Source: Parapedobacter composti (lineage in GTDB: Bacteria; Bacteroidota; Bacteroidia; Sphingobacteriales; Sphingobacteriaceae). Taken from it: DNA of 64,000 bases. Each line of letters opens with the position of its first letter. The stretch's first letter is position 1. The notes below the pieces were generated by a model. That model was not told the DNA's origin. It did not search any database and saw only the letters and a program-made list of their open reading frames with translations. The translations under genes were made by a program, and so were the position numbers. The stretch covers positions 1 through 64,000 of the forward strand of contig NZ_FOLL01000005.1 of assembly GCF_900112315.1 (NCBI RefSeq), in the 5' to 3' direction. Shown in pieces: positions 10,206 through 21,477 of the stretch.

Positions 10206-11110
10206 ATGACCAATCCACAACAACCGAAAGTGGGCTTGTACATTGACCCTCTTACAGATTTTGGTTTCAAAAAGCTCTTCGGAACCGAACCCAACAAGGA
10301 CTTGCTCATTGCCTTGCTCAATAGTATTTTCCGCGGGCGCAAGAACATCGTTGTTTGACCTACAACAAAAACGAGCATCACGGCGAAACTAAGGACGAGG
10401 GGGCGGCCATCTTCGACCTCACCTGTACCGGGGATGATGGCGAGTGCTTCATTATAGAGGTGCAACGCGGCAAGCAGGGCAATTTCAAGCAGCGCGCCGT
10501 ATTCTACACCAGTCGTCTTATCACCGAACAGGCACCCAAGGGCCGCCGCTCCGAGTGGGCCTATGACGTAAAAGAGGTATACCTCATAGCCTTGTTGGAA
10601 GACTTCACGCTGGATGCTGTGAGTGACGACCGCTATTTGCACGATATTTGTTTGAGCGAGAGGGAGACAGGAAAAGTTTTCTACGATGGATTGGGGTATA
10701 TATCCATCGAATTGGTTAATTTTGTGAAAACGGAGGATGAAGCGGAGACAGACCTCGAAAGGTGGCTCTATGTATTGAAAAACATGAGCAGCATGGATAA
10801 GGTGTCGATCTACACCCGCAAGCCGATTTTCGAGAAACTGTTTAACGTGGCGGAGTACGCCAATTTAACAAGGGAGGAAAAGGCCATGTATGATGCAAGT
10901 CTGAAACGCAAATGGGACAACAAAGCCGTGTTGGATTACGCGGTCAGCGAAGCCGTAAAGGAGGCTACTACTAAAACCCGCGAAGAAGAACGCGCTAAGG
11001 CAGAGGCAGAGAAACTGAAATCAGCCTTAAAGATGAAACAAAGTGGTTTTGATGTCTACATGATTGCAGACATACTTGAGTTGCCCGCGGAGAAAGTGGA
11101 AAAACTTTAG
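10206..11110 (+). pseudogene. Frameshifted Rpn/PD-(D/E)XK nuclease family gene
   Basis: From ATG 10206 the product begins like the Rpn/PDDEXK_2 transposase-nuclease family (LYIDPLTDFGFKKLFGTEPNK, LLNSIFRGRKNIV), then hits TGA at 10356. The rest is intact in the next frame from 10355 (LTYNKNEHHGETKDEGAAIFDL, FIIEVQRGKQGNFKQRAVFY) to 11110. One missing base near 10354 explains the break (IV-D-LTYNKN). Catalytic-type residues are visible in the second piece: D of AAIFDL and the E-x-Q of IIEVQ. Family members are RecA-independent recombination-promoting nucleases or transposase-like proteins. The C-terminus is a charged helix ending in a short ILELPAEKVEKL motif. Confidence 0.8.
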
Positions 11111-11202: not shown

Positions 11203-11235
11203 CTAAGCCATATAGTGAATATGGAGGCAACTAAG

Positions 11236-11309
<74 letters not shown>

Positions 11310-11391: not shown

Positions 11392-12270
11392 TCAGTCTTT
11401 CGGTGATATCGGGTCAGCACCCTTGGTAACTGCCTGCTTGTAAACGCTGCCCTGCCGCATGGTGGAATCCTGACGTTCGACATCGGGTACTGCTATGGGT
11501 GATAAAATAACAACAGGTGTATCCATGCCGGACGCTCCGGGGGTTATCGGGCGAGCCACTGTGTCTGAGGCAGTGGCCGGTTGCTTGCGTGCGTTGCCGC
11601 CATCGGTCCACCACAGCTTGCCCGCCGCAGCCAAGGCGAGCAACGCCAGAGCGCCGAACACCAGCCACTTGGTGTTGGCAGTTTTGTCTTCGGGCATCTG
11701 CCTTTCTTCCGCCGCGGAATCACCGCTGGCCGCACCTGCCGCCTGCTCTTCTAAAAGCATAAGGGACTGGAACATCTCATTGGCCATGAGATAGTTTACC
11801 GCCACTTGCAGACAACTATCCGCACGGGCAATTTCCTGCCGAAAAGGCTCCCTGGACGCTTCCAACCCCGTGCGCGCGATGGTTTCTTCCAACTCACGCT
11901 TGTATAACGTATACCGTTGTTCCGCCTGCAACGGTGTGTCGTGCGGGTAGAGCGCAAAAAAAGCCAGCGCTTCTTCCGGTGACGGCTGCCCGTCGCCGAG
12001 GGTATCGCCTCCTTCCGCGATATAACCTTTGCTCAGGGACAGCAGTGCTCCCATATCGCTGATGACCGAACTATCCGTGAGCACCTTATAGGCGGTTTCC
12101 AGTTCATACAGATGCTGTTCATGCACCGCTTTCATACCCTCGGCAAGGGAGCGGCCATACGCCTCGTCACTCAATGAATAACGCGCTGCAAAGCGGATGC
12201 GGATGGTTTCCAAATCAGCGCCTTCCGGCAGCGAAAGGTTTTTGTAAGCTTGTTCTTTGGTCATTTCCAT
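11392..12270 (-). CDS. Membrane protein with tandem degenerate J-like domains (short form)
   Basis: 292 residues. Residues 1-67 have the helix pattern of a DnaJ J domain (EQAYKNLSLPEGADLETIRIRFAARY ... LYELETAYKVLTDS), but the HPD tripeptide is absent; YSLSDEA occupies its place. A second region of the same kind spans ~100-170 (EEALAFFALYP ... ARADSCLQVAVNYL). One membrane helix follows at ~198-218 (WLVFGALALLALAAAGKLWW), then a ~70-residue Ser/Thr/Pro-rich tail with no fold I recognise. The two J-like regions should face the cytosol. It is the last gene of the Hsp70 cluster and probably anchors that chaperone to the membrane; this is inference. Confidence 0.8.
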   Translation of the reverse strand: MEMTKEQAYKNLSLPEGADLETIRIRFAARYSLSDEAYGRSLAEGMKAVHEQHLYELETAYKVLTDSSVISDMGALLSLSKGYIAEGGDTLGDGQPSPEEALAFFALYPHDTPLQAEQRYTLYKRELEETIARTGLEASREPFRQEIARADSCLQVAVNYLMANEMFQSLMLLEEQAAGAASGDSAAEERQMPEDKTANTKWLVFGALALLALAAAGKLWWTDGGNARKQPATASDTVARPITPGASGMDTPVVILSPIAVPDVERQDSTMRQGSVYKQAVTKGADPISPKD

Positions 12271-12291
12271 AGCTCTGTTTCATGTAATCAG

Positions 12292-13545
12292 CTACTCGGT
12301 CAGGTTCAGCCGGATGGGAAGCGTATAAGCCACGCGCACGGGGCGGCCGTTCTGTTGCCCCGGAGTCCATTTCGGGGATTTCCGAAGCGTTTCGATAAGT
12401 GCTTCCCCCGTGCCAAATCCGATATGCCTGACAACCTTGAAGTCGGTCAAGCTACCGTCTCTGTCGACGACGAATGACACTTCTACGCGCCCGTTGACCC
12501 CCGCTTCTATTGCGGCGGCCGGATAAGCATAGTTTTCACCTACCCATCTCGTGAAGGCGGCTATCCCGCCCGGCGGTACCGCCTCCACCTCTACGGTTTC
12601 GTATATCTTTTCATCGGTCGCGTTACTTTCCCGCCTCTGAGCGTCGGATGTTCCGGCTTGCGCGGTGGGCGCCGTCTCCCGCTTGCTTTTTGCTGCAATC
12701 GCCCGTTCAGGCGTTTTATCTTCAATTGCTTCGGTGGCAACGCTATCCTTTTGAAGCGTTGCCACAGACCTGCTGTTAGTCGCCGGAGCCCGGGCAGTGG
12801 AGTCCGATGCCGCGCTATCTATCGGCGCTACGGCCAACGTATCGGCATCTACCGGTTTTACGCGTCCGTTACCACTCCACCACCAATAACCACCGCCCAG
12901 TGCGACAACCACCAGCAAGCCGAATAACCATACGGGTACGCCGGTTTTCCGTTGCCGAGACGTTTCCTCCAACATTGCCGGCTGGGTGGTGCCCGGTACT
13001 TCCTGATTTGGTATCCCCTCTGGTTCCGCTTCGGCGTGGCGGGTCGCCAGCCAAGGCCGGATGACCGCTTCAGCCGCTTCGGCTTTGGTAATTTCCTGCT
13101 GATATGCCGCCTTCGCGGCAGGCAGATTCACCGTCATATATTGCTGGTGCAGTTCGGCAAGATGCTGTCTTACCATACGCGCGATGACGGCGGCTGGCTG
13201 GTGAACAGAAAGTCCGAATACGGCCAAAGCGCGATCGATGTTCTGAGGGGCCGTTTCATCGTCGCCGATGAGGTGCTTTTCCCCGGAACCCTCTTCGAAA
13301 GTCCCGCTCTGCGCCGTACGGGGCAGATCCCCCGTGTCGTCCATACGATCGCTCTCATTGAGTAACGCATAAGCTTCCTTTACCGCTTCGAGGTGTTGCT
13401 CATACGTCTGCCGCATGCGCGCCGTGGGCGCATTATCGATACGCATCCGGTAGTCGTTGTATAGCTCTGCAAATTTGCGCCGCACTTCTTGCAGGTCGGC
13501 TCCCTGGGGTAACTCCAGTCGTTCGTATGCTTCTTGTTTTGTCAT
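12292..13545 (-). CDS. J-like membrane protein with C-terminal TonB_C domain
   Basis: 417 residues. The N-terminal J-like domain (1-67: EAYERLELPQGADLQEVRRKFAELYNDYRMRID ... HLEAVKEAYALLNE) lacks HPD. A second J-like region spans ~105-175 (ALAVFGL ... YQQEITKAEAAEAVIRPWL). A membrane helix lies at ~203-222 (PVWLFGLLVVVALGGGYWWW), followed by a periplasmic Ser/Thr/Ala-rich linker. The final ~95 residues form a TonB C-terminal domain (WVGENYAYPAAAIEAGVNGRV, FVVDRDGSLTDFKVVRHIG, SPKWTPGQQNGRPVRV). TonB_C domains usually contact outer membrane receptors, but the usual TonB membrane anchor is replaced here by the J-like part. Its first ~200 bases are nearly identical to the next paralogue. Confidence 0.88.
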   Translation of the reverse strand: MTKQEAYERLELPQGADLQEVRRKFAELYNDYRMRIDNAPTARMRQTYEQHLEAVKEAYALLNESDRMDDTGDLPRTAQSGTFEEGSGEKHLIGDDETAPQNIDRALAVFGLSVHQPAAVIARMVRQHLAELHQQYMTVNLPAAKAAYQQEITKAEAAEAVIRPWLATRHAEAEPEGIPNQEVPGTTQPAMLEETSRQRKTGVPVWLFGLLVVVALGGGYWWWSGNGRVKPVDADTLAVAPIDSAASDSTARAPATNSRSVATLQKDSVATEAIEDKTPERAIAAKSKRETAPTAQAGTSDAQRRESNATDEKIYETVEVEAVPPGGIAAFTRWVGENYAYPAAAIEAGVNGRVEVSFVVDRDGSLTDFKVVRHIGFGTGEALIETLRKSPKWTPGQQNGRPVRVAYTLPIRLNLTE

Positions 13546-13595
13546 TTTTCTTAATTATCAATTGTGATTCATATGCAGCTCCTGCCGACTCGTTT

Positions 13596-13812
13596 CTATG
13601 GCCGGCTATAATTTGAATTTGCGGCGATGACTTCAATTCGGTTGTTCAAGCGGTGGCAATCGGGTTTTTCGACGTCTACATACAACCGCTCACTGCTGCC
13701 TTTTCCTATTACATCAACCGCCGTTGGACTGACCCCCATGTCCACCCAGAACCTGTGAATAGCCTGTGCGCGATCTGCTGAAGCCCGCAAAATGAAGGGC
13801 CAGACAACCCGA
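13596..13812 (-). pseudogene. OmpA-like C-terminal domain remnant
   Basis: A minus-strand frame with no proper start reads RASADRAQAIHRFWVDMGV, then TAVDVIGKGSSERL, and ends CHRLNNRIEVIAANSN. This is the second half of an OmpA-like peptidoglycan-binding domain (S-x-x-RA-x-x-x, G-x-G, N-R-x-E-I pattern). The first half and any membrane anchor are gone; the fragment begins right after the stop of the SUMF1-domain gene. It probably descends from another cluster member with an OmpA-like periplasmic part, replaced when a paralogue inserted or duplicated here. Confidence 0.6.
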
Positions 13813-13816
13813 CTGT

Positions 13817-15634
13817 TTACTGGGAAAGAACGATCCGGAAACCGTTGTGATCACGGCGGACATCCGGGAAGTCGCCGAGGCGATAGGCAACGCGGCAGTC
13901 GGGAGTATCGAAATTCCAGCTGCCACCGCGAAGCACGCGGAGAGAACCGGATGCAGCGCCCCTGGGATTTTCCTTAGGACTGTCGGCATAGTAATCTCCG
14001 CCATACCAGTCATTACACCATTCCCAAACGTTGCCGCTCATGTCATAAATACCCAGCTCGTTGGCCCGTTTACTGCCCACCGGATGCGTTTTACCGCCAC
14101 TGTTCCCACTATACCATCCTACACCATCCATAGAACTTCCGCCGCTGTAGGTATAGCCATTGCTGCGGTTACCACCCCGCGCGGCATACTCCCATTCGGC
14201 CTCCGTGGGCATCCGGTACGGTTGGCCGGTCTGGCCGCTCAGCCACTCGCAGTAAGCTACGGCATCGTGCCAGCTTACGTTTACGGCGGGGTGGTCATCT
14301 ATCCATCCCCAGCTTGGCGTTCTCGGCATACTGCGCCCCGTGGCGTTGCAAAATGCGCGGTATTGCCTCACCGTTACCTCGTGTTTGCCTACTCGATAAC
14401 TGCTCAACGTAACACTGTGCACCGGCTGCTCGTCACTCTCGCCATCATCGCTGCCCATCCGGAACGTACCTCCGGCTACATAAACTGTCTCGGGAATGGG
14501 GATTGCAGGAGCGGCCGGTTCAGGCGCCGGCTTGGGTTTCGGTTCATCCTTTGGGGTCGTCATCGGCGGTGCAGCGGGCCCGGGCTTGGGTTCATCCTTG
14601 GGGGTCTCCGGCTCCCCAAGCTTGATGATCCAGTCACCGGTGCGTGCTTCCCTGGGCAAGTAGTAAAGCCGCTCCTGCCCGTCCTTGGGACGCACCGCAT
14701 AATATCCGTCGGTCTCCGCTATGACGGCTATACTATCCCCGGCGCGCAGCGTTGCCGCGTAGGTTTCCCCGTTCAGCGCCGCGTCGGTGGCTACCTGCTT
14801 CTGTTCGTCGGCTGTCAACGCTCGTTTGCGCAGCACCAGCGTGCCTTTTCCCAATTGGGAGCTAATGTAGTGCGTGGGTTGCCAGGGTTGCCCCGCGGCC
14901 GGGCTGTCCAGCCCTTCCGTACCGCTGTCGCCGGAAAACTTCCAGACGAGCACCCCTGCCAGTAAAATCGCCGCTATACCCAACACGTACCACAGCACAT
15001 TTCGGCGTTTTTGCGGTGGAATGGGCACATGGGCCTTTTCCGGTATCGGGTCTTTCGCATTCACCGGGCCGGGGGGCTGCTCGGCACCACCTCCTTTAGG
15101 CTTAGCGTCAGCGTTTGCTGCAGCGGTTTGTTGAACCAACCAGCCTGCGATGGTTTCCCAGGCGTGTTCCGCTTTAGCCAGTTCCTTTTCGTATGCCGCC
15201 TTGATAGCGGGAAGTGCCGCAGCCGCAAGTTGGGTTTTCAGATCGGTGATGTGCTGTTGGCAAGCGGCCGCAAGCTGCTGCTGTGGAAAATTCTTCCCAA
15301 GCCCAAACACAGCCAAGGCCTGGTCGATATGCTCGCTGTTTTTTCCATCATGGGTATTCCGTTGCTGCTCTTGCGCAGTTTCTTCAAAAGTACCTGTCTG
15401 CCCGGTACGGGGCAGGTCGCCCGTGTCGTCCATGCCACTGCTCTCGTTGAGCAACGCATAAGCTTCCTTTACCGCTTCGAGGTGTTGCTCATACGTCTGC
15501 CGCATGCGCGGCGTGGGCGCGTTGTCTATCCGCATCCGGTAGTCGTTGTATAGCTCAGCAAATCTGCGCCGCACTTCCTGCAGGTCGGCCCCGTCGGGTA
15601 ACTCCAGTCGTTCGTATGCTTCTTTGTTGGTCAT
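13817..15634 (-). CDS. J-like membrane protein with SH3-like and SUMF1/FGE domains
   Basis: 605 residues. Two degenerate J-like regions (1-67, HPD absent; ~108-178, ALAVFGLGKNF ... KAEHAWETIAGWL) precede a membrane helix at ~212-232 (VLWYVLGIAAILLAGVLVW). Then come an SH3-like stretch (~265-340: GDSIAVIAETDGYYAVRPKDG), a Pro/Lys/Glu linker with repeated PKDEPKP, and a full formylglycine-generating-enzyme/sulfatase-modifying domain from ~375 to the end (VYVAGGTFRMGSDDGESDEQP, YRMPTEAEWEYAARGG, MSGNVWEWCNDWYGGDY, LRVLRGGSWN). The cysteine pair of genuine FGE is not evident, so the domain may bind rather than oxidise. The C-terminal part lies in the periplasm if the N-terminus is cytosolic. Confidence 0.9.
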   Translation of the reverse strand: MTNKEAYERLELPDGADLQEVRRRFAELYNDYRMRIDNAPTPRMRQTYEQHLEAVKEAYALLNESSGMDDTGDLPRTGQTGTFEETAQEQQRNTHDGKNSEHIDQALAVFGLGKNFPQQQLAAACQQHITDLKTQLAAAALPAIKAAYEKELAKAEHAWETIAGWLVQQTAAANADAKPKGGGAEQPPGPVNAKDPIPEKAHVPIPPQKRRNVLWYVLGIAAILLAGVLVWKFSGDSGTEGLDSPAAGQPWQPTHYISSQLGKGTLVLRKRALTADEQKQVATDAALNGETYAATLRAGDSIAVIAETDGYYAVRPKDGQERLYYLPREARTGDWIIKLGEPETPKDEPKPGPAAPPMTTPKDEPKPKPAPEPAAPAIPIPETVYVAGGTFRMGSDDGESDEQPVHSVTLSSYRVGKHEVTVRQYRAFCNATGRSMPRTPSWGWIDDHPAVNVSWHDAVAYCEWLSGQTGQPYRMPTEAEWEYAARGGNRSNGYTYSGGSSMDGVGWYSGNSGGKTHPVGSKRANELGIYDMSGNVWEWCNDWYGGDYYADSPKENPRGAASGSLRVLRGGSWNFDTPDCRVAYRLGDFPDVRRDHNGFRIVLSQ

Positions 15635-15683
15635 TTATCTTTAGTTATCAGATTTCGGCCACGGGTAATCGGGCCGTTTTTTT

Positions 15684-17207
15684 TCAAATCACATTATTGA
15701 TAAACGCTTTCTGCACCAGCTTTTTCTGCGCGGCAAGGTAGTTGGCACCCATGCCTTCCTTGCCGAAGGTCTTTTCCAGTTCGCGGCCCGTTTTCGGATC
15801 ATAGGCCTGAAGGATTACCGTGTTATCCTCCGTATATTCGAGGGTGATTTCGATGGGGTAATTTGCTTCATTGCTCGGCAACGGTCCGACGTTGAGCACA
15901 CCCATGGTCTTCACATCGTCTTCTTCGATAAACTGCACCAGCTCGATGCGCATTTTGCCGGCATTGTTGGGCGCGGTATAATAGGTTTTCTTGGCCTTGA
16001 GCGGCAGCGGACGGTTTTTCTTGATGATAATATCAAGAATGGTGCGCCCGCTGTCGGTATCTACGGCGCGTACGGCCAGGTTATAACCGGTGACCCCCTT
16101 AAGCTCAGACGGCATATCGGCAACCATTGCACCATTACCCGCAAGCATACGGGCATAAATGGCGGCACCAAACACCACCGCCTTCATGGGTTCATGGTAC
16201 TGGATTTTGTCTGCCAGTGCGGGCAGCTTCTGTGCCAGGTACTGGCGGATGAAGGGAATCATCGAGGAGCCGCCGACCAGCAGCAGTACGTCGATATCCT
16301 GCTCATGCAGACCGGCCGACGAGATGCAACGCTTCAGGATTTTGATGGTACGCTCTACCTGGCTCGTGATGGCTTTTTCAAACTCCCTACGGGTGATGAA
16401 CACCTCGATGCTCTCGTCGCCGATGAGGCATACCCGCTTGATGTAGTTGACACCGGGCATGGACAGCTCAATCTTCACCTCCTCCGAAAAAGCGCGGAGT
16501 TGCTGCAGCTTTCGGCCATTGAATTTCAGGGGCTTGCCGGTGGCTTGCTCAAACTGCTGGTGAATGATTTCGGCCACGGCTTCGTCAAATTCCTTGCCGC
16601 CAAGGTCGGTAATTCCGTCTTTGCTCACCACATAAAACCCTTTATCGTTCATATTGAGGATGGTGGTATCAAATGTGCCGCCCCCCAGGTCGTAGACAAG
16701 GATATTGCGGTCGGCCGAGCGGTTACTGAGGCCATAATGCATCGCCGCGGCTACGGGTTCTTCCACGAGGCCCATCACGGGCAGGCCAATCATGGCGGCG
16801 GCGTTGATGATGGCCTTGCGCTGCGCATCGGTGAAATGGGCGGGCACGGTGATGACGGCCCCCTCCACCGGATTGGAGGCGTAGATCTCGGCGTCGTACT
16901 TGATTTTTTTCAATACGAGTGCAGCGACGGCTTCGGGATACCAGATTTCGCCCTGCATATCCATGTAGAGCTCCTTATTATCGCCGAGGTACCGCTTGAA
17001 AAAGCGGATCACGTTGAGATCAGGGTTCTGTTCGAGCATATACAGCACCGACTGCCCCACGAAGGCGTTATTGCCGTTGATATGCAGGATGCTGGGCGTA
17101 TACAGCACATTCTTGTCCGAATTGTCCGGCAGCAGCACAGGCTGGTGGTCGATATTGAGCGTGGCGCCCAGTGAATACGTGGTTCCTAAGTCGATTCCGA
17201 TAATCAT
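15684..17207 (-). CDS. Short Hsp70-family chaperone
   Basis: 507 residues against ~635 for DnaK. The nucleotide-binding domain is complete: phosphate-1 GIDLGTTYSLGA (4-15), GAVITVPAHFTDAQR, EEPVAAAMHYGL, phosphate-2 NILVYDLGGGTFDTTIL, and the adenosine motif LLLVGGSSMIPFIRQYL. A beta-type substrate domain follows to ~475 (GYNLAVRAVD, LPLKAKKTYYTA, VLNVGPLPSNEANYPIEITLEY). The alpha-helical lid is almost absent, only ~30 residues. No grpE or canonical dnaJ adjoins it; HPD-less J-like membrane proteins do. Its ATG overlaps the upstream stop as ATGA, so translation is coupled. Probably a specialised, membrane-recruited Hsp70. Confidence 0.92.
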   Translation of the reverse strand: MIIGIDLGTTYSLGATLNIDHQPVLLPDNSDKNVLYTPSILHINGNNAFVGQSVLYMLEQNPDLNVIRFFKRYLGDNKELYMDMQGEIWYPEAVAALVLKKIKYDAEIYASNPVEGAVITVPAHFTDAQRKAIINAAAMIGLPVMGLVEEPVAAAMHYGLSNRSADRNILVYDLGGGTFDTTILNMNDKGFYVVSKDGITDLGGKEFDEAVAEIIHQQFEQATGKPLKFNGRKLQQLRAFSEEVKIELSMPGVNYIKRVCLIGDESIEVFITRREFEKAITSQVERTIKILKRCISSAGLHEQDIDVLLLVGGSSMIPFIRQYLAQKLPALADKIQYHEPMKAVVFGAAIYARMLAGNGAMVADMPSELKGVTGYNLAVRAVDTDSGRTILDIIIKKNRPLPLKAKKTYYTAPNNAGKMRIELVQFIEEDDVKTMGVLNVGPLPSNEANYPIEITLEYTEDNTVILQAYDPKTGRELEKTFGKEGMGANYLAAQKKLVQKAFINNVI

Positions 17208-18979
17208 AACTTAGCTAAGGTTTGATGATATTGCTGATATATCTCGCCCTTGAACTGTGCCAGCGAGCGGTCAAACGCATCTTTGTTTTTTATCGCCGCC
17301 TGGTGGCCGCGCTCCCGCTGCTCCAACCCCTGGATGCGGCGCTGCACCGAACGTTGGCTCTGCTGTATTTTTTCCTTATGTTCCTCTGCGGCCGCGGCGA
17401 AGGCGCTGTCCAGCTGGTTGACCATCCCGTTGAGCTCCTCACGGATAGCCGTGGAAAGCTCACGGCCCCATTCGTCGGTAACTTTGCGGATCATGCTTTT
17501 GGACTCGCCGATAAGACTTTCGCGCATTCGGTTGAGCTCGGCATCGTATTCGTGCAACCGCCTTGCCTTCGTATTTTGTATAAACTTGTAGAGACTGTAA
17601 CCACAGACGGCCACAAGGATAGGGATTGTCAAGTACTTGTTGCCACCACTGATGAGTCGGCGAATATTGAATCCCATCAATGCCGAGAGCATGAACAATG
17701 AGCCCAAGCCCAAAATCGGCCCCATTGCTGCACGGCTATAATCAAAAAACTGTAATTTCTTTTTCTCGGTCTCGTATTTCTGCTGAAACAGGATATACTC
17801 CTGCATGTTGCCCTGTATGCGCGACAGGTTGAGTTGCATGCGGGGCTGATAGGAAAACTCAACCTGATGTCTGGCCAACTGCTGCTGTGTCTCTGTCGAT
17901 TCGTGTTTGAGAAATTCCTTCAGCGAAAAGAGGTCCTGGTCGATTTGGCTGCGAAGGGATTGCGTGATGGTGCGCTGCAGTTGCTCCTTCGTTCCGGCGG
18001 GTAGCCGCATACGGAGGGCGCCGGCGAAGTTTTCTTCTTCCAGTTGTTGCACCTGCATGACCTGGCGCTCCACTGCGGCCATCAGCGACTGGCTGTTGTA
18101 CTTTTGCCCCATGCGCTGCAATTGATCGTTGATGCCGCGTTCGAACTCGTTGAAATCGCGCTGCAAATTACTTTTCAGTTGCTGGAAAAGGTCGCGGAGA
18201 TTGAGCTTTTCATCCTGCTTCACCGCATTGATATCCTGCTGGGCATTGAATTTTTTCGTACGGATGTCCTTTTCCTGCTGGGCGACAAATTGATCGAATG
18301 CTTCACTGATGCGCTCCAGCCCCTGCACCAGCCCCATGCCATATACCAGGGGCATGCATTCCTGGAGCTTCTGCTGCTCAATGAGCATCCCGAGGGTTTC
18401 CGGCAGCTGGTCCAACGGCCGTGCCAGCACACGGAGGTCGTCCATGTGGTGCAACAAGGGGCTACCGGATTCGAAAGCATGTACCAATACGCCGCCCTCT
18501 GCAGCCAGCCGCAGTTGGATGGGTTCGAGCTCATCGGCAGGTGGGTTTTCCCTGCCAAACCAAAGGGCAAGCTTCATCGTAGGCCGGATACTGCCCGTAT
18601 CGCGCACGGGAAAATGTGCGGAGGTATATACACGGTACGCAAAGGCCGTATTGCCATCGGCTACCGGCTGGGCATGAAACGTAAAACGCCGCTCTGCTTG
18701 GCTGACCGCCTCGGTAAGGTCGGCATACTGGGCCTGATCCAGCTGCAGAAAATGCAGCAGCCAGCGCGCCTGTTCTTCCTGTGGGCTGTCCAGCAAGATC
18801 ACTTCTACGGGAAAAGCCACCCGCTCGCGGGCATGTCCGCGCAACGTCGCTAAATGGGAATGGAGATGGTGCCCCATCTCCATCCCCGGATAGCTTTGCA
18901 TCAGCGATAATAGACTATCAGCAGCTTTTTGAAATCTGCCGATAAAAACCTGACTTAAAACGATTTCCATCCAATGCAA
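17204..18979 (-). CDS. Dynamin-like helical membrane protein without visible GTPase
   Basis: 591 residues. The N-terminal ~210 residues are mixed alpha/beta (VAFPVEVILLDSPQEEQARWLL, TMKLALWFGREN, LRVLARPLDQLPETLGML) with no Walker A. Residues ~230-420 are long amphipathic helices (LNLRDLFQQLKSNLQRDF, MAAVERQVMQVQQLEEENF). Two closely spaced membrane helices follow at ~430-450 and ~460-478 (MGPILGLGSLFMLSALMGF; LTIPILVAVCGYSLYKFI), then a C-terminal coiled coil. This topology resembles the stalk and hairpin of bacterial dynamin-like proteins, but the GTPase is not recognisable. ATG codons at 18979 and 18970 are both possible. It overlaps the Hsp70 start by 4 bases. Confidence 0.75.
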   Translation of the reverse strand: MHWMEIVLSQVFIGRFQKAADSLLSLMQSYPGMEMGHHLHSHLATLRGHARERVAFPVEVILLDSPQEEQARWLLHFLQLDQAQYADLTEAVSQAERRFTFHAQPVADGNTAFAYRVYTSAHFPVRDTGSIRPTMKLALWFGRENPPADELEPIQLRLAAEGGVLVHAFESGSPLLHHMDDLRVLARPLDQLPETLGMLIEQQKLQECMPLVYGMGLVQGLERISEAFDQFVAQQEKDIRTKKFNAQQDINAVKQDEKLNLRDLFQQLKSNLQRDFNEFERGINDQLQRMGQKYNSQSLMAAVERQVMQVQQLEEENFAGALRMRLPAGTKEQLQRTITQSLRSQIDQDLFSLKEFLKHESTETQQQLARHQVEFSYQPRMQLNLSRIQGNMQEYILFQQKYETEKKKLQFFDYSRAAMGPILGLGSLFMLSALMGFNIRRLISGGNKYLTIPILVAVCGYSLYKFIQNTKARRLHEYDAELNRMRESLIGESKSMIRKVTDEWGRELSTAIREELNGMVNQLDSAFAAAAEEHKEKIQQSQRSVQRRIQGLEQRERGHQAAIKNKDAFDRSLAQFKGEIYQQYHQTLAKL

Positions 18980-18984
18980 TGCAT

Positions 18985-19923
18985 TTAAAACATAAAGCCA
19001 CCACCAGAGGAGGATGCGGCTTGCGATCGGAGACTTTCGATTTCAGACAGTACGGATTGCGCCTCTGAACGGATGTTTTCAATTTCGGAGCGGATGCTTT
19101 CGGCCTCCTGCCGGTCGTTGCTGATCTGCTCCGTCTGGTTCTTGGCTTCGCTCTGCAGTTGCGTGATTTCTTCTTTTAAGGATTCCGAGTCCTGCTTAAG
19201 CGTTTCGATTTCCTGTTTGAGACCTTCGGCTTCATTGCGCAGTTGCTCGCTTTCTTCACGAAGCCGTTGGTTTTCATCGCGAAGGACGATATTTTCGTCA
19301 CGCAAAGCGGTCGACTCGTCACGGAGTGTTAGCGACTCGTCACGCAACGCCGTGTTCTCATCGCGCAACGCCAATGATTCATCACGGAGTGTGGTGGACT
19401 CATCGCGCAGCACCGTATTCTCATCGCGCAACGCCAACGACTCATCGCGGAGTGTGGTAGATTCGTCGCGCAATGTCGTACTCTCATCGCGCAAAACCAA
19501 TGACTCATCACGGAGCGTGGTAGACTCGTTGCGCAACGTCGTACTCTCATCGCGCAAAGCCAATGATTCATCGCGCAAGACCAACGTCTCGCCATGCAAG
19601 GCAGTGGATTCATCGCGTAACGTAATAGACTCGTCCCGCAGTGCCGTAATTTCTCCTTGCAAAGATTGGCTTTCGTCACGAAGGGTGGTAACTTCTTCGC
19701 GAAGCGCGGTGGATTCATCACGCACGCCTTCTACCTGACCGTAAACGTTACGTGACTGCTCCAGTACATCCGACACCTGATTCGAAACATCCTGCACATG
19801 TTGATGGATTTCATTGATTTCGTCGGTTTTTCCCTGAATCATTGATGACTTGTCAATCAATTCATCGAGGGCAGTGCTTGCATTGGCAAGTATAGCTTCC
19901 AATTGTCCTACTGATTGTTCCAT
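18985..19923 (-). CDS. Heptad-repeat coiled-coil protein
   Basis: Start taken at ATG 19923 (MEQSVGQLEAIL); a longer frame reaches 19980 but overlaps the upstream gene. About 312 residues, nearly all coiled coil. A first helix (ALDELIDKSSMIQGKTDEINEI) leads into some two dozen near-perfect seven-residue units of the form L-R-D-E-S/N-x-x (roughly bases 19190-19720), then ordinary coiled coil, ending SSSGGGFMF. There is no signal peptide or membrane helix, so it is cytosolic. It lies 5 bases before the dynamin-like gene. A scaffold or spacer role within the chaperone cluster is inference. Confidence 0.8.
   Translation of the reverse strand: MEQSVGQLEAILANASTALDELIDKSSMIQGKTDEINEIHQHVQDVSNQVSDVLEQSRNVYGQVEGVRDESTALREEVTTLRDESQSLQGEITALRDESITLRDESTALHGETLVLRDESLALRDESTTLRNESTTLRDESLVLRDESTTLRDESTTLRDESLALRDENTVLRDESTTLRDESLALRDENTALRDESLTLRDESTALRDENIVLRDENQRLREESEQLRNEAEGLKQEIETLKQDSESLKEEITQLQSEAKNQTEQISNDRQEAESIRSEIENIRSEAQSVLSEIESLRSQAASSSGGGFMF
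19190..19720 (-). repeat. Degenerate 21-bp tandem repeat encoding L-R-D-E-S/N heptads
   Basis: Within the coiled-coil gene the plus strand shows repeated TCATCGCG or TCGTCACG blocks every 21 bases, with alternating spacers such as GAGTGTGGTA and CAACGCCAA. Several longer units (42-63 bp) recur almost exactly, which points to recent expansion by slippage or unequal exchange. Copy number may therefore vary between strains. Confidence 0.85.
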
Positions 19924-19954
19924 TTTATTGACATTTATCTGGTTTACGTGAGAA

Positions 19955-20701
19955 TTATACGCTCTTGGCCATGCTAACAAAGACCTCCATCTTACGCTGA
20001 AGCGTGAGACTAATCAATTGATCGGGCGCCATTCCAATCATACTCAGCAGCTCTTGTTCAATGGAGTAATTTTCTTCGATATATTGGTTGAGGCTGTCCG
20101 TTTCAAGCGCATCCGTACCGAGTGTGGGAACTGCGGTTCTGTCAGCGCCTGCCGGATCAGTTACCGCTTCCGGAGAAGCGGTTTCCATGAGCTCAGAAGC
20201 TTCGTCCGCATTCAGCGTGTGGTAAGCGGCCAAGGAGATGCCCGCGGCACCAAGCGCCATTGCTGCGCCAACCCATGTCTTTCCTGTCCTGTTGTCTCTC
20301 ATAAGCAACGGCTTTCTGGCTTCCAGCTGCTGGAAAGCCGACGTGTACGGCTGCTCCTGGCCGTGTTGCCGCAACGTCTCAAACCGGTCGCGCACCACAT
20401 CCCAATCACTGCCTTCGGGCAAATCCAATGCCTTCAACGCTTCGCGCGTTTGATAGAGTTCGGCATTTTTTTCTGAAATACGAGCGGAGAAGGCGCTATA
20501 AGCTTGTTGCAGATTGTCGAGCTCGCGCTTTACAGCTGCCTTATCGCTATCAGGAGCAGGCTTTTCAAGCTGACTTTCTAAATCCTTGATCCGCACTTCG
20601 TATGCTTTCTTTACCTGCGGCCATTTACTTGACAACGGCAGGTTGAGCAACCTGAAGAGGTTGTTCGATGACAGATTCTGGGTTAAAGGCAATGCCTCCA
20701 T
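19955..20701 (-). CDS. J-like membrane protein, first gene of the Hsp70 cluster
   Basis: 248 residues. Residues ~12-78 form a J-like helical domain (NLFRLLNLPLSSKWPQVKKAY ... AAVKRELDNLQQAYSAFSA), and ~90-130 a second (EALKALDLPEGSDWDVVRDRF ... YTSAFQQLEARKPLL); neither has HPD. A membrane helix lies at ~143-160 (TWVGAAMALGAAGISLAAY). The ~85-residue periplasmic tail is acidic, with a conserved-looking IEENYSIEQELLSMIG segment. It starts 117 bases after the response regulator gene, with a terminator between, so the cluster probably has its own promoter here, though none is obvious. Confidence 0.78.
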   Translation of the reverse strand: MEALPLTQNLSSNNLFRLLNLPLSSKWPQVKKAYEVRIKDLESQLEKPAPDSDKAAVKRELDNLQQAYSAFSARISEKNAELYQTREALKALDLPEGSDWDVVRDRFETLRQHGQEQPYTSAFQQLEARKPLLMRDNRTGKTWVGAAMALGAAGISLAAYHTLNADEASELMETASPEAVTDPAGADRTAVPTLGTDALETDSLNQYIEENYSIEQELLSMIGMAPDQLISLTLQRKMEVFVSMAKSV

Positions 20702-20817: not shown

Positions 20818-21477
20818 TCAGATATCCAGGTGCTGCTGCGCAAAAAGAAACAATCCGTTATTTCCTTTGATATCCAGTTTGGCACAGATGTTCCTGCGGT
20901 GGGTTTCTATGGTAAACGGGCTGACGAATAGGTGTTCAGCTATCTCCTGTGTTGTCTTATTTTGCCTGACCAGCCGGATGATTTCCACTTCGCGCTTGGT
21001 GAGGTTATATTTTTGCCGTATGCTTTGCTGATCGTTCTCGTCGTCCGCAGCGGAGCCACGGGGCTGTGGAGCAAAGTAACGCCTCCCCTGATAGACTTCT
21101 TCGATAGCGTGTATAAGCACGGTAGCGTCAGAATCTTTCGGTATAAAGCCTCCTACCCCCATGTCTTTCAGCGCGTGCTGCAACGAGGCTGTATAATACA
21201 TGGAGACGATGAGGATTTTCAAGCGAGGATACATTGACAGGGCTTTGGCGGCTGCTTGCTGTCCATCAATCTTCGGCATATTCAGATCCATGACCACCAC
21301 ATCTGGCTGGTTATGCTGGAGCAATTGGAGCGCCTCCCGCCCGTCACGGGCGGTGTGCCACACGGCGAAACGGTCGTGGTTATCCAGAATGGACCGTAAC
21401 CCGTCGATAAAAAGCTGGTGATCATCCACCAGCAGCAGGTTTATCTTTTTTGGATCAATTGGTTTGGTTTCCATCAT
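20818..21477 (-). CDS. LuxR/NarL-type response regulator
   Basis: 219 residues. The receiver domain (~10-130) has the acidic pair DD at LLVDDHQLF, the phosphoacceptor Asp in VVMDLNMPKIDG and the conserved Lys in GFIPKDSD. The LuxR-type helix-turn-helix at ~155-215 reads LTKREVEIIRLVRQNKTTQEIAEHLF and TIETHRRNICAKLDI. It overlaps the histidine kinase gene by 23 bases, so the two form a cognate pair. Lying directly upstream of the Hsp70 cluster in the same direction, it is a reasonable candidate regulator of it, but no binding site can be shown. Confidence 0.95.
   Translation of the reverse strand: MMETKPIDPKKINLLLVDDHQLFIDGLRSILDNHDRFAVWHTARDGREALQLLQHNQPDVVVMDLNMPKIDGQQAAAKALSMYPRLKILIVSMYYTASLQHALKDMGVGGFIPKDSDATVLIHAIEEVYQGRRYFAPQPRGSAADDENDQQSIRQKYNLTKREVEIIRLVRQNKTTQEIAEHLFVSPFTIETHRRNICAKLDIKGNNGLFLFAQQHLDI

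Follow-up and report, generated by a model that had tools for sequence, protein, structure and literature searches.

Among the described systems closest in kind to the gene cluster reported here is the HscC-DjlB/DjlC system of E. coli. The cluster lies in Parapedobacter composti, at positions 20701-11392 of the first 64,000 nucleotides of contig NZ_FOLL01000005.1 (the window), and consists of seven minus-strand genes and an OmpA-like remnant; the genes encode a lid-less Hsp70, a dynamin-like protein of 591 residues, a coiled coil, and four J-like proteins. Like the cluster, the E. coli system has a divergent, dedicated Hsp70 with two membrane-anchored J proteins encoded in its vicinity and Sel1-repeat genes close at hand: hscC, djlB, and djlC sit together near ybeQ and ybeT. 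In E. coli K-12 (676500-685500), ybeQ and ybeT, both Sel1-repeat genes, lie scattered among djlB, djlC, and hscC together with two DUF1266 genes, a parallel to the Sel1 genes of the related Sphingobacterium clusters. DjlB and DjlC carry HPE in place of the HPD motif and are tail-anchored, and DjlC stimulates HscC (PMC8215388, PMC13254874). In contrast, the J part of the cluster proteins lacks HPE, is N-terminal, and the protein continues past the membrane span. HscC also differs from the cluster Hsp70 in keeping R167, Q378, and D393 and in having a longer C terminus that aligns to the DnaK lid, and no pseudo-dynamin, coiled coil, or array of envelope heads is annotated in the 9 kb seen around hscC.

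Other described systems also share features with the cluster. The HPD-less (type IV) J proteins, Pam16/Tim16 among them, have a J fold without HPD, and Pam16 sits at a membrane machine that contains an Hsp70. However, Pam16 pairs with HPD-bearing Pam18 and the Hsp70 Ssc1 (PMC13254874), whereas the cluster encodes no HPD partner and its Hsp70 lacks the matching residues. The bacterial dynamin-like proteins (DLPs) CjDLP1/2 and BDLP resemble the 591-residue protein in predicted fold; a DLP adjoining BDLP1 bears a DnaJ-like domain, and an HcpA-like protein is encoded within the cj-dlp operon (PMC6104087). Unlike these, the 591-residue protein directly precedes the Hsp70 gene, has no second DLP gene beside it in the window cluster, and lacks the P-loop in all five homologs. 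GTPase-centric conflict systems with Hsp70 (GAP1-N2 type) combine a GTPase-fold protein, an Hsp70, J-fused repeat proteins, and kinase/PP2C themes and occur mostly in actinobacteria and firmicutes (PMC7159879). The cluster has a pseudo-dynamin instead, and library scans, in which the presence of a GAP1-N2 model is unverified, gave no match to GAP1-N2, tubulin, or GrpE.

The present analysis tentatively favors an inner-membrane platform of Hsp70 and pseudo-dynamin with exchangeable envelope adaptors over a conventional J-stimulated chaperone. Each part is a divergent member of a known family; with moderate confidence, the whole is new as a system, matching none of the known systems considered, and none such was found in the open-licence literature searched.

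Gene layout and conservation of the core

The initial annotation, which was made from the sequence alone, had described seven minus-strand genes and one remnant. All seven open reading frames (ORFs) were located, as was the remnant by tblastn, and they are listed below with the two flanking genes.

20701-19955 (-): J248, J-like protein of 248 residues that opens the conserved core; borderline membrane span
18985..19923 (-): coiled coil with LRDEST-type heptads; conserved C terminus ending in FMF
17204..18970 (-): pseudo-dynamin; helical trunk, G domain in degenerate form, two candidate membrane spans
17207-15684 (-): lid-less Hsp70, 507 residues; Pfam HSP70 E 1.2e-79
15634-13817 (-): J605, 605 residues; two J-like domains in tandem, membrane span at 213-231, domain of FGE/SUMF1 fold predicted to be periplasmic
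13629..13796 (-): remnant of an OmpA-like array gene, by tblastn to S. micropteri OmpA proteins
13545-12292 (-): J417, 417 residues; two J-like domains in tandem, membrane span at 201-219, TonB C-terminal domain predicted to be periplasmic
12270-11392 (-): J292, 292 residues; final array member, membrane span at 203-221, short tail predicted to be periplasmic
20818..21477 (-): LuxR-type response regulator, flank; bounds the inserted stretch
11235..11309 (-): tRNA-Ala(GGC), flank; other bound of the inserted stretch

Two starts were adjusted by eye to those of relatives. The coiled-coil ORF (331 residues) opens at TTG 19980, and ATG 19923 matches the start in relatives; the 591-residue ORF (18979-17204) opens at TTG 18979, and ATG 18970 is the better fit. 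With these starts, the core genes are separated by 31, 14, and -4 bases and the later ones by 49, 271, and 21. The overlap of 4 bases between the pseudo-dynamin stop and the Hsp70 start recurs in three relatives and thus in four clusters. Promoter and terminator scans gave results under the shuffled mean.

The neighborhood proved to be conserved. Sphingobacterium sp. FBM7-1, S. micropteri DN00404, and S. pedocola Ka21 carry the same succession of a J248-type gene, coiled coil, 591-type gene, Hsp70, and J-like array genes. A divergent version is present in a genome of another genus of the Sphingobacteriaceae (G119), where coiled-coil, J-FHA, pseudo-dynamin, and Hsp70 genes all run in one direction. 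Since the order recurs in other species, the cluster is not a chance grouping. In the window as in S. micropteri and S. pedocola, the final J gene is of the J292 type, and apparently also in FBM7-1, where this gene spans two stretches of retrieved sequence; the relatives carry further genes beyond it.

Loss of the Hsp70-J trigger on both sides

The Hsp70 had been called lid-less, and it is: its Pfam HSP70 match covers positions 1-495 of 599 and leaves 27 residues, so that there is no room for the helical lid, and the cluster Hsp70s of all five genomes are equally short (507-509 residues), without the lid. Identity is 33% to DnaK and 27% to HscC, which is not the closest relative. Because the 4.6-Mb genome of the window encodes a full-length DnaK elsewhere, the cluster protein is a second, divergent Hsp70. 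The catalytic residues K70, R71, E171, T199, and D201 are kept in all five proteins, as are 18 of the 23 positions that we take to be invariant in the nucleotide pocket.

The residues that face the J domain present a different picture. R167 is replaced by G or A, Q378 by Y, and D393 by G in each of the five cluster Hsp70s, whereas E. coli HscC and the genome's own DnaK keep all three. In DnaK, R167 and Q378 are bonded by D35 of the HPD motif, P34 is in contact with P419, and D393 and D481 are the pairing partners of R167 (PMC8215388, PMC7289447). The interdomain linker VLLLD reads SELKG in four cluster Hsp70s and IDLRG in G119. Up to position 394, DnaK, HscC, and the genome's own DnaK have 116 invariant positions; 29 of these are retained by none of the five cluster Hsp70s, namely 7 of 11 J-contact positions versus 22 of 105 others (Fisher p 0.005, in a post hoc test on a contact list taken in part from general background).

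On the other side, HPD is absent, and not even an HP dipeptide occurs within the first 120 residues of 24/24 J-like proteins. These are 24 of the 26 known; one member each from S. micropteri and FBM7-1, cut at the ends of their loci, was excluded. Judged from these residues, the Hsp70-J trigger is gone on both sides. Such a joint loss fits co-adaptation, with independent decay of the two sides as a possible alternative. Recruitment of the Hsp70 by ordinary J domains, as the initial annotation had envisaged, is contradicted by the missing motifs (HPD in 24/24, R167/Q378/D393 in 5/5), and a canonical J-stimulated chaperone is weakened as a candidate on the same grounds.

As to the J fold itself, the Pfam DnaJ model stayed under its cut-off on the J-like proteins (E 0.12 for J417, 0.38 for J605, and 0.17 for the J248 ortholog of FBM7-1). 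When the profile of 15 array modules was compared with that of 12 real J domains (DjlB and DjlC not among them), the first domain gave hhalign E 6.7e-5 at 64% probability, against 0.27 for reversed sequences. An earlier and smaller test, to which 6 of 11 real-J loci contributed no sequence, had given E 0.0027 versus 0.50-0.69 for reversed and shuffled columns. The AlphaFold2 model of J417 is good in its two helical domains only (residues 1-60 at a predicted local distance difference test score, pLDDT, of ~86), with helices at 3-9, 18-37, 42-62, and 68-73 in the first domain and a second bundle at 99-173. Foldseek returned nothing for this model at E 0.001, its best J row standing at E 0.26. 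In a second structural search with VIA, 16 of the 20 top rows were J-domain proteins, including a DnaK-bound J domain (Z 8.0), and the other 4 matched the second bundle; the J rows had Z 6.3-8.4, values that may reflect a merely common arrangement, as may any Z below 8 or, for helical bundles, below about 13. Profile and model agree, and the J fold of the first domain (helices I-IV) is thus supported, although Z values alone are not decisive. Helix II of the model runs unbroken across the site where the profile alignment places HPD.

For the second domain, the case for a predicted J fold is weaker. It matches the array profile over 60 residues at E 6e-4 (reversed 0.086) and real J domains at only E 0.019 (reversed 0.066), and its structural rows are generic helical bundles. 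The claim of tandem J-like domains therefore stands for the first domain and less firmly for the second. The first domain of J248 matches array modules at E 8e-5 and real J domains at E 0.002 (reversed 0.29), and its orthologs in the three Sphingobacterium clusters are 40-45% identical; the J-FHA domain of G119 matches the array profile at E 3.7e-4. Likewise, all four J-like proteins had been taken as membrane proteins, and hydropathy gives a clear span in three. J248 is borderline: no 19-residue window reaches 1.5 in it or in one of its three orthologs, the other two reaching 1.55 and 1.64. Basic residues precede the span in J417, J605, and most relatives.

The pseudo-dynamin and the coiled coil

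A dynamin-like fold, as first assigned, is borne out for the 591-residue protein by structural comparison. The best Foldseek rows for its AlphaFold2 model were the Campylobacter dynamin pair CjDLP (E 3.2e-4 and 6.8e-4) and BDLP (E 1.9e-3). With VIA, 19 of the 20 top rows belonged to the dynamin superfamily, at large root-mean-square deviations and with Z up to 11.9, to which the same caution for helical bundles applies; residues ~54-215 matched small GTPases at Z near 6. The protein is thus assigned, with moderate confidence, the G domain fold and helical trunk of the superfamily. Candidate membrane spans lie at residues 417-435 and 449-467 (numbering of the ORF from TTG 18979).

Neither the P-loop (GK[ST]) nor [NT]KxD occurs in any of the five homologs; the unspecific DxxG is found in three of them, at unlike places. 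An active dynamin GTPase is ruled out by the missing P-loop. Since the dynamin fold is modeled and the GTP-binding motifs are absent, the protein is best called a pseudo-dynamin. The coiled-coil gene contains a 21/63-base tandem repeat, and a coiled coil of similar kind stands at the matching position in three relatives.

A modular array with diverse predicted periplasmic heads

Matches to the J module at E≤0.01 in the five whole genomes fall inside the clusters without exception (24/24). For each of 16 modules tested, out of 17 known, the nearest relative of an array J module comes from the same genome; identity is 84.5% within genomes (31 pairs) versus 64.3% between them (89 pairs). A direct repeat of 261 bases, 89% identical (window 13292-13552 and 15381-15641), spans the starts of J417 and J605 with a few upstream bases, and the J module therefore appears to have been copied recently. 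Array genes also decay, as indicated by the remnant, which matched OmpA299 (E 4.7e-8) and OmpA174 (E 2.7e-8) of S. micropteri at a set database size. In contrast to the array modules, the last-J genes group across genomes and apart from them: the best matches of J292 are J459 (65% over 166 residues) and J420 (42% over 301), each the last-J gene of a relative, and the three join with support 100/100.

As the initial annotation had it, the predicted topology gives these proteins a common cytosolic part and diverse periplasmic parts. The heads found are Sel1, WG, OmpA, FGE, and TonB_C; HcpA, which was mentioned above for the cj-dlp operon, is presumably a Sel1-repeat protein as well. J605 carries Pfam FGE-sulfatase (E 2.6e-59) and J417 TonB_C (E 2.3e-15). 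OmpA, Sel1, WG, and FGE heads occur both fused to J modules and as separate genes within the clusters. The S. micropteri cluster encodes an FGE protein that stands alone, to which J605 is 34% identical over 214 residues. In that cluster, the OmpA part of J493 is 96% identical to OmpA177 over 158 residues, and J493 is likely a recent fusion of J319 and OmpA177. An active formylglycine-generating enzyme (FGE) is not supported for J605, where a single cysteine follows GGSW in place of the pair that we take to be present in human FGE; the best NCBIfam match of the domain, GldK, is far under its cut-off (106 versus 350 bits).

Distribution and insertion site

The genome counts that follow take in the window's own genome, except for the Sphingobacterium set. 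With the 591-residue protein as query, 3 of 201 genomes of the family matched. A three-row profile matched 6/350 genomes of the order and 2/345 of the phylum, each count including one weak match that was dropped, and 4/93 Sphingobacterium genomes, again with one weak match, leaving 3/93. Within the genus of the window, the cluster occurs in 1 of 9 genomes, and the 591-residue protein in none of the 8 others. Two matches were discarded as false positives, G171 (E 3.8e-4 over 54 profile positions, in a 1347-residue frame not read further) and G486 (E 1.5e-4), the region of which holds no cluster. A five-row Hsp70 profile found none but the window's own genome among 395 phylum genomes at E 1e-92 and G119 alone among 145 genomes of its genus at E 1e-70; the samples of the phylum searches, of 345, 148, and 395 genomes, overlapped, and the limits set for the Hsp70 profile were strict. 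Outside Bacteroidota, the reach was that of contig scans, which detect close relatives, and of plasmid searches. The first contig scan, with a single query sequence, gave no match, and a plasmid-borne cluster found no support in 72,556 plasmid records, none of which matched the 591-residue protein (E 1e-5), the G119 Hsp70 (1e-75), or the G119 pseudo-dynamin (1e-3). The cluster is rare and accessory.

A histidine kinase flanks the cluster beside the response regulator, and three further genomes of the nine-genome genus set encode it (E 1e-100). In these three genomes, the response regulator lies ~0.14, 0.47, and 0.62 kb from tRNA-Ala(GGC), versus 9.5 kb in the window. Since the flanks stand so close together there, the cluster was either inserted in the window or lost in all three. 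Its position is upstream of the tRNA gene, outside the 3′ end of that gene. No integrase family match was obtained among the seven cluster proteins, and their genes, at 50-59% GC versus 51% for the window, show no strong compositional foreignness, which is not decisive. A PD-(D/E)XK nuclease family transposase (window 10355-11107, plus strand, Pfam E 1e-56) lies just past tRNA-Ala at the 3′ end of the cluster and could have had a role in its insertion.

In G119, genes for a Ser/Thr kinase-MORN protein, PP2C, TPR, and Bat-type MoxR/DUF58/BatA proteins flank the core on one strand, whereas the window cluster has no MoxR and vWA match. The Bat-type operon (L008 698-4579 and L064 8890-11679; TPR-like genes assigned by eye) continues the Hsp70 operon on the same strand with small gaps. 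At the end of the long coiled-coil protein of G119 (L008 13067-15538) stands a Peptidase_S74 (chaperone of endosialidase) domain (E 8.4e-9), a domain known from phage tail spikes.

Discussion

We propose, tentatively, that the cluster encodes one inner-membrane assembly. The pseudo-dynamin and the coiled coil would form a scaffold at the cytosolic face, on which the lid-less Hsp70 would sit as the ATP-driven part. The J-like proteins would be single-pass adaptors whose common cytosolic pseudo-J plug docks on the platform, while their periplasmic heads (TonB_C, FGE fold, OmpA, Sel1, WG) may bind peptidoglycan, outer-membrane, or other envelope parts. With both halves of the HPD/R167 trigger gone, docking probably does not set off ATP hydrolysis as it does in the classical cycle, and the Hsp70 may rather act as an ATP-gated assembly switch that links or stabilizes envelope sites. 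This reading draws support from the conserved core order with the 4-base pseudo-dynamin/Hsp70 overlap in four clusters, and from J modules that are restricted to the clusters, alike within genomes, and accompanied by heads either fused or separate. It is also supported because basic residues precede the membrane span and because the Hsp70 keeps its catalytic residues and loses the J-facing ones, next to a modeled dynamin fold.

Several observations weigh on the other side. The distribution of the cluster is that of a rare, accessory element, and in G119 a 2-base gap replaces the 4-base overlap. Model confidence is low to moderate (whole-model pLDDT 55 for J417; pLDDT 63 and predicted template modeling score 0.43 for the 591-residue protein), and the Z values and the large deviations of the dynamin rows add to this. 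The J-contact comparison is post hoc; positions 218, 334, 335, and 391 are kept in at least four of the five cluster Hsp70s, and so are P419, which the HPD proline contacts (all five), and D481 (four). Four matches to the J profile lie outside the clusters of the five genomes, at E 0.065-0.44. In the tree, the modules of each genome do not form a clade, those of FBM7-1 and S. micropteri being unresolved, and their likeness within genomes may come from recent duplication alone, as in J417 and J605. Some heads are standalone proteins without a J module.

The most serious rival, which we consider rather unlikely, is a dedicated membrane chaperone like HscC-DjlB/DjlC, in which divergent J domains both bind and stimulate the Hsp70 in another way and the pair folds or guards membrane or envelope proteins. 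The clustering of hscC with its J genes, the J fold, the kept P419, and the intact ATPase residues all speak for it. So do the stimulation of HscC by DjlC, which carries HPE, and that of Hsc70 by a designed J analog without HPD (PMC13254874). However, the cluster J-like proteins lack even the HP dipeptide, HscC retains the three J-facing residues that the cluster Hsp70s have lost, DjlB and DjlC are tail-anchored, unlike the cluster proteins with their N-terminal J part and a portion past the span, and hscC has neither a pseudo-dynamin nor a coiled coil annotated beside it in the 9 kb seen.

An accessory conflict or defense system, in which a membrane device with variable heads senses attack by phages or rivals and the dynamin-like protein mediates a response at the membrane, appears unlikely. 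The sparse distribution, the insertion beside a tRNA gene, and a common plug with variable heads would suit it, as would the kinase, PP2C, FHA, and MoxR/vWA genes of the G119 version, considering that predicted conflict systems join GTPases, Hsp70, DnaJ-fused repeat proteins, kinases, and PP2C (PMC7159879). Against this, the seven proteins have no toxin or nuclease family match, and the heads are envelope folds that are also present in housekeeping proteins. PADLOC lent no convincing support to a known defense system: the coiled coil matched JetC and other models by way of its coiled coil (best E 1.7e-7), and the remaining matches were weak (J248 to PDC-S06, E 0.0037; Hsp70 to PDC-M61B, E 0.018).

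A signaling or secretion-assembly complex, built or dismantled under phosphorylation control with FHA- or J-linked heads reporting the state of the envelope, is improbable, for although the G119 core stands on one strand with kinase-MORN, PP2C, J-FHA, TPR, and Bat genes and a histidine kinase/response regulator pair adjoins the window cluster, no kinase, PP2C, or FHA was recognized in the four close clusters among that part of their proteins which was scanned, and the same pair occurs in three same-genus genomes without the cluster.

Returning to the Hsp70/pseudo-dynamin platform, it is possible, though we hold this extension more loosely, that the cluster represents an undescribed class of envelope machine, in which the Hsp70 and the J proteins jointly gave up the HPD/R167 trigger, the Hsp70 became an ATP-gated hub on a pseudo-dynamin scaffold, and the pseudo-J plugs allow heads to be swapped by gene fusion. 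Whether departures from HPD are accidental or selected is described as enigmatic in a 2026 review (PMC13254874, section 7), which, for several J proteins with such departures, gives the Hsp70 contact as unknown. An Hsp70 without the HPD-facing residues, encoded alongside an entire group of HPD-less J proteins, the module of which was found in the clusters alone in five genomes, makes this question testable in a small operon. If the proposal is true, a dynamin-like protein without GTPase motifs joins Hsp70 biology, and the cluster would show how bacteria construct exchangeable adaptors across the inner membrane.

Other genes near the Sphingobacterium clusters

Lipoprotein-like genes lie near the 3′ end of the Sphingobacterium clusters (L048 7387-8415 and 10356-11420; L049 15892-16905; L017 15898-16944). 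Three of them were scanned; the one from L017 had no match, and the other two weakly match Pfam Serpin (E 3e-4 and 4e-4). Inside the arrays, two large proteins of 919 and 934 residues look exported (L018 5711-8470 and L016 6322-9126), the one from L018 being marginally over the VWA_2 cut-off (27.4 versus 27).

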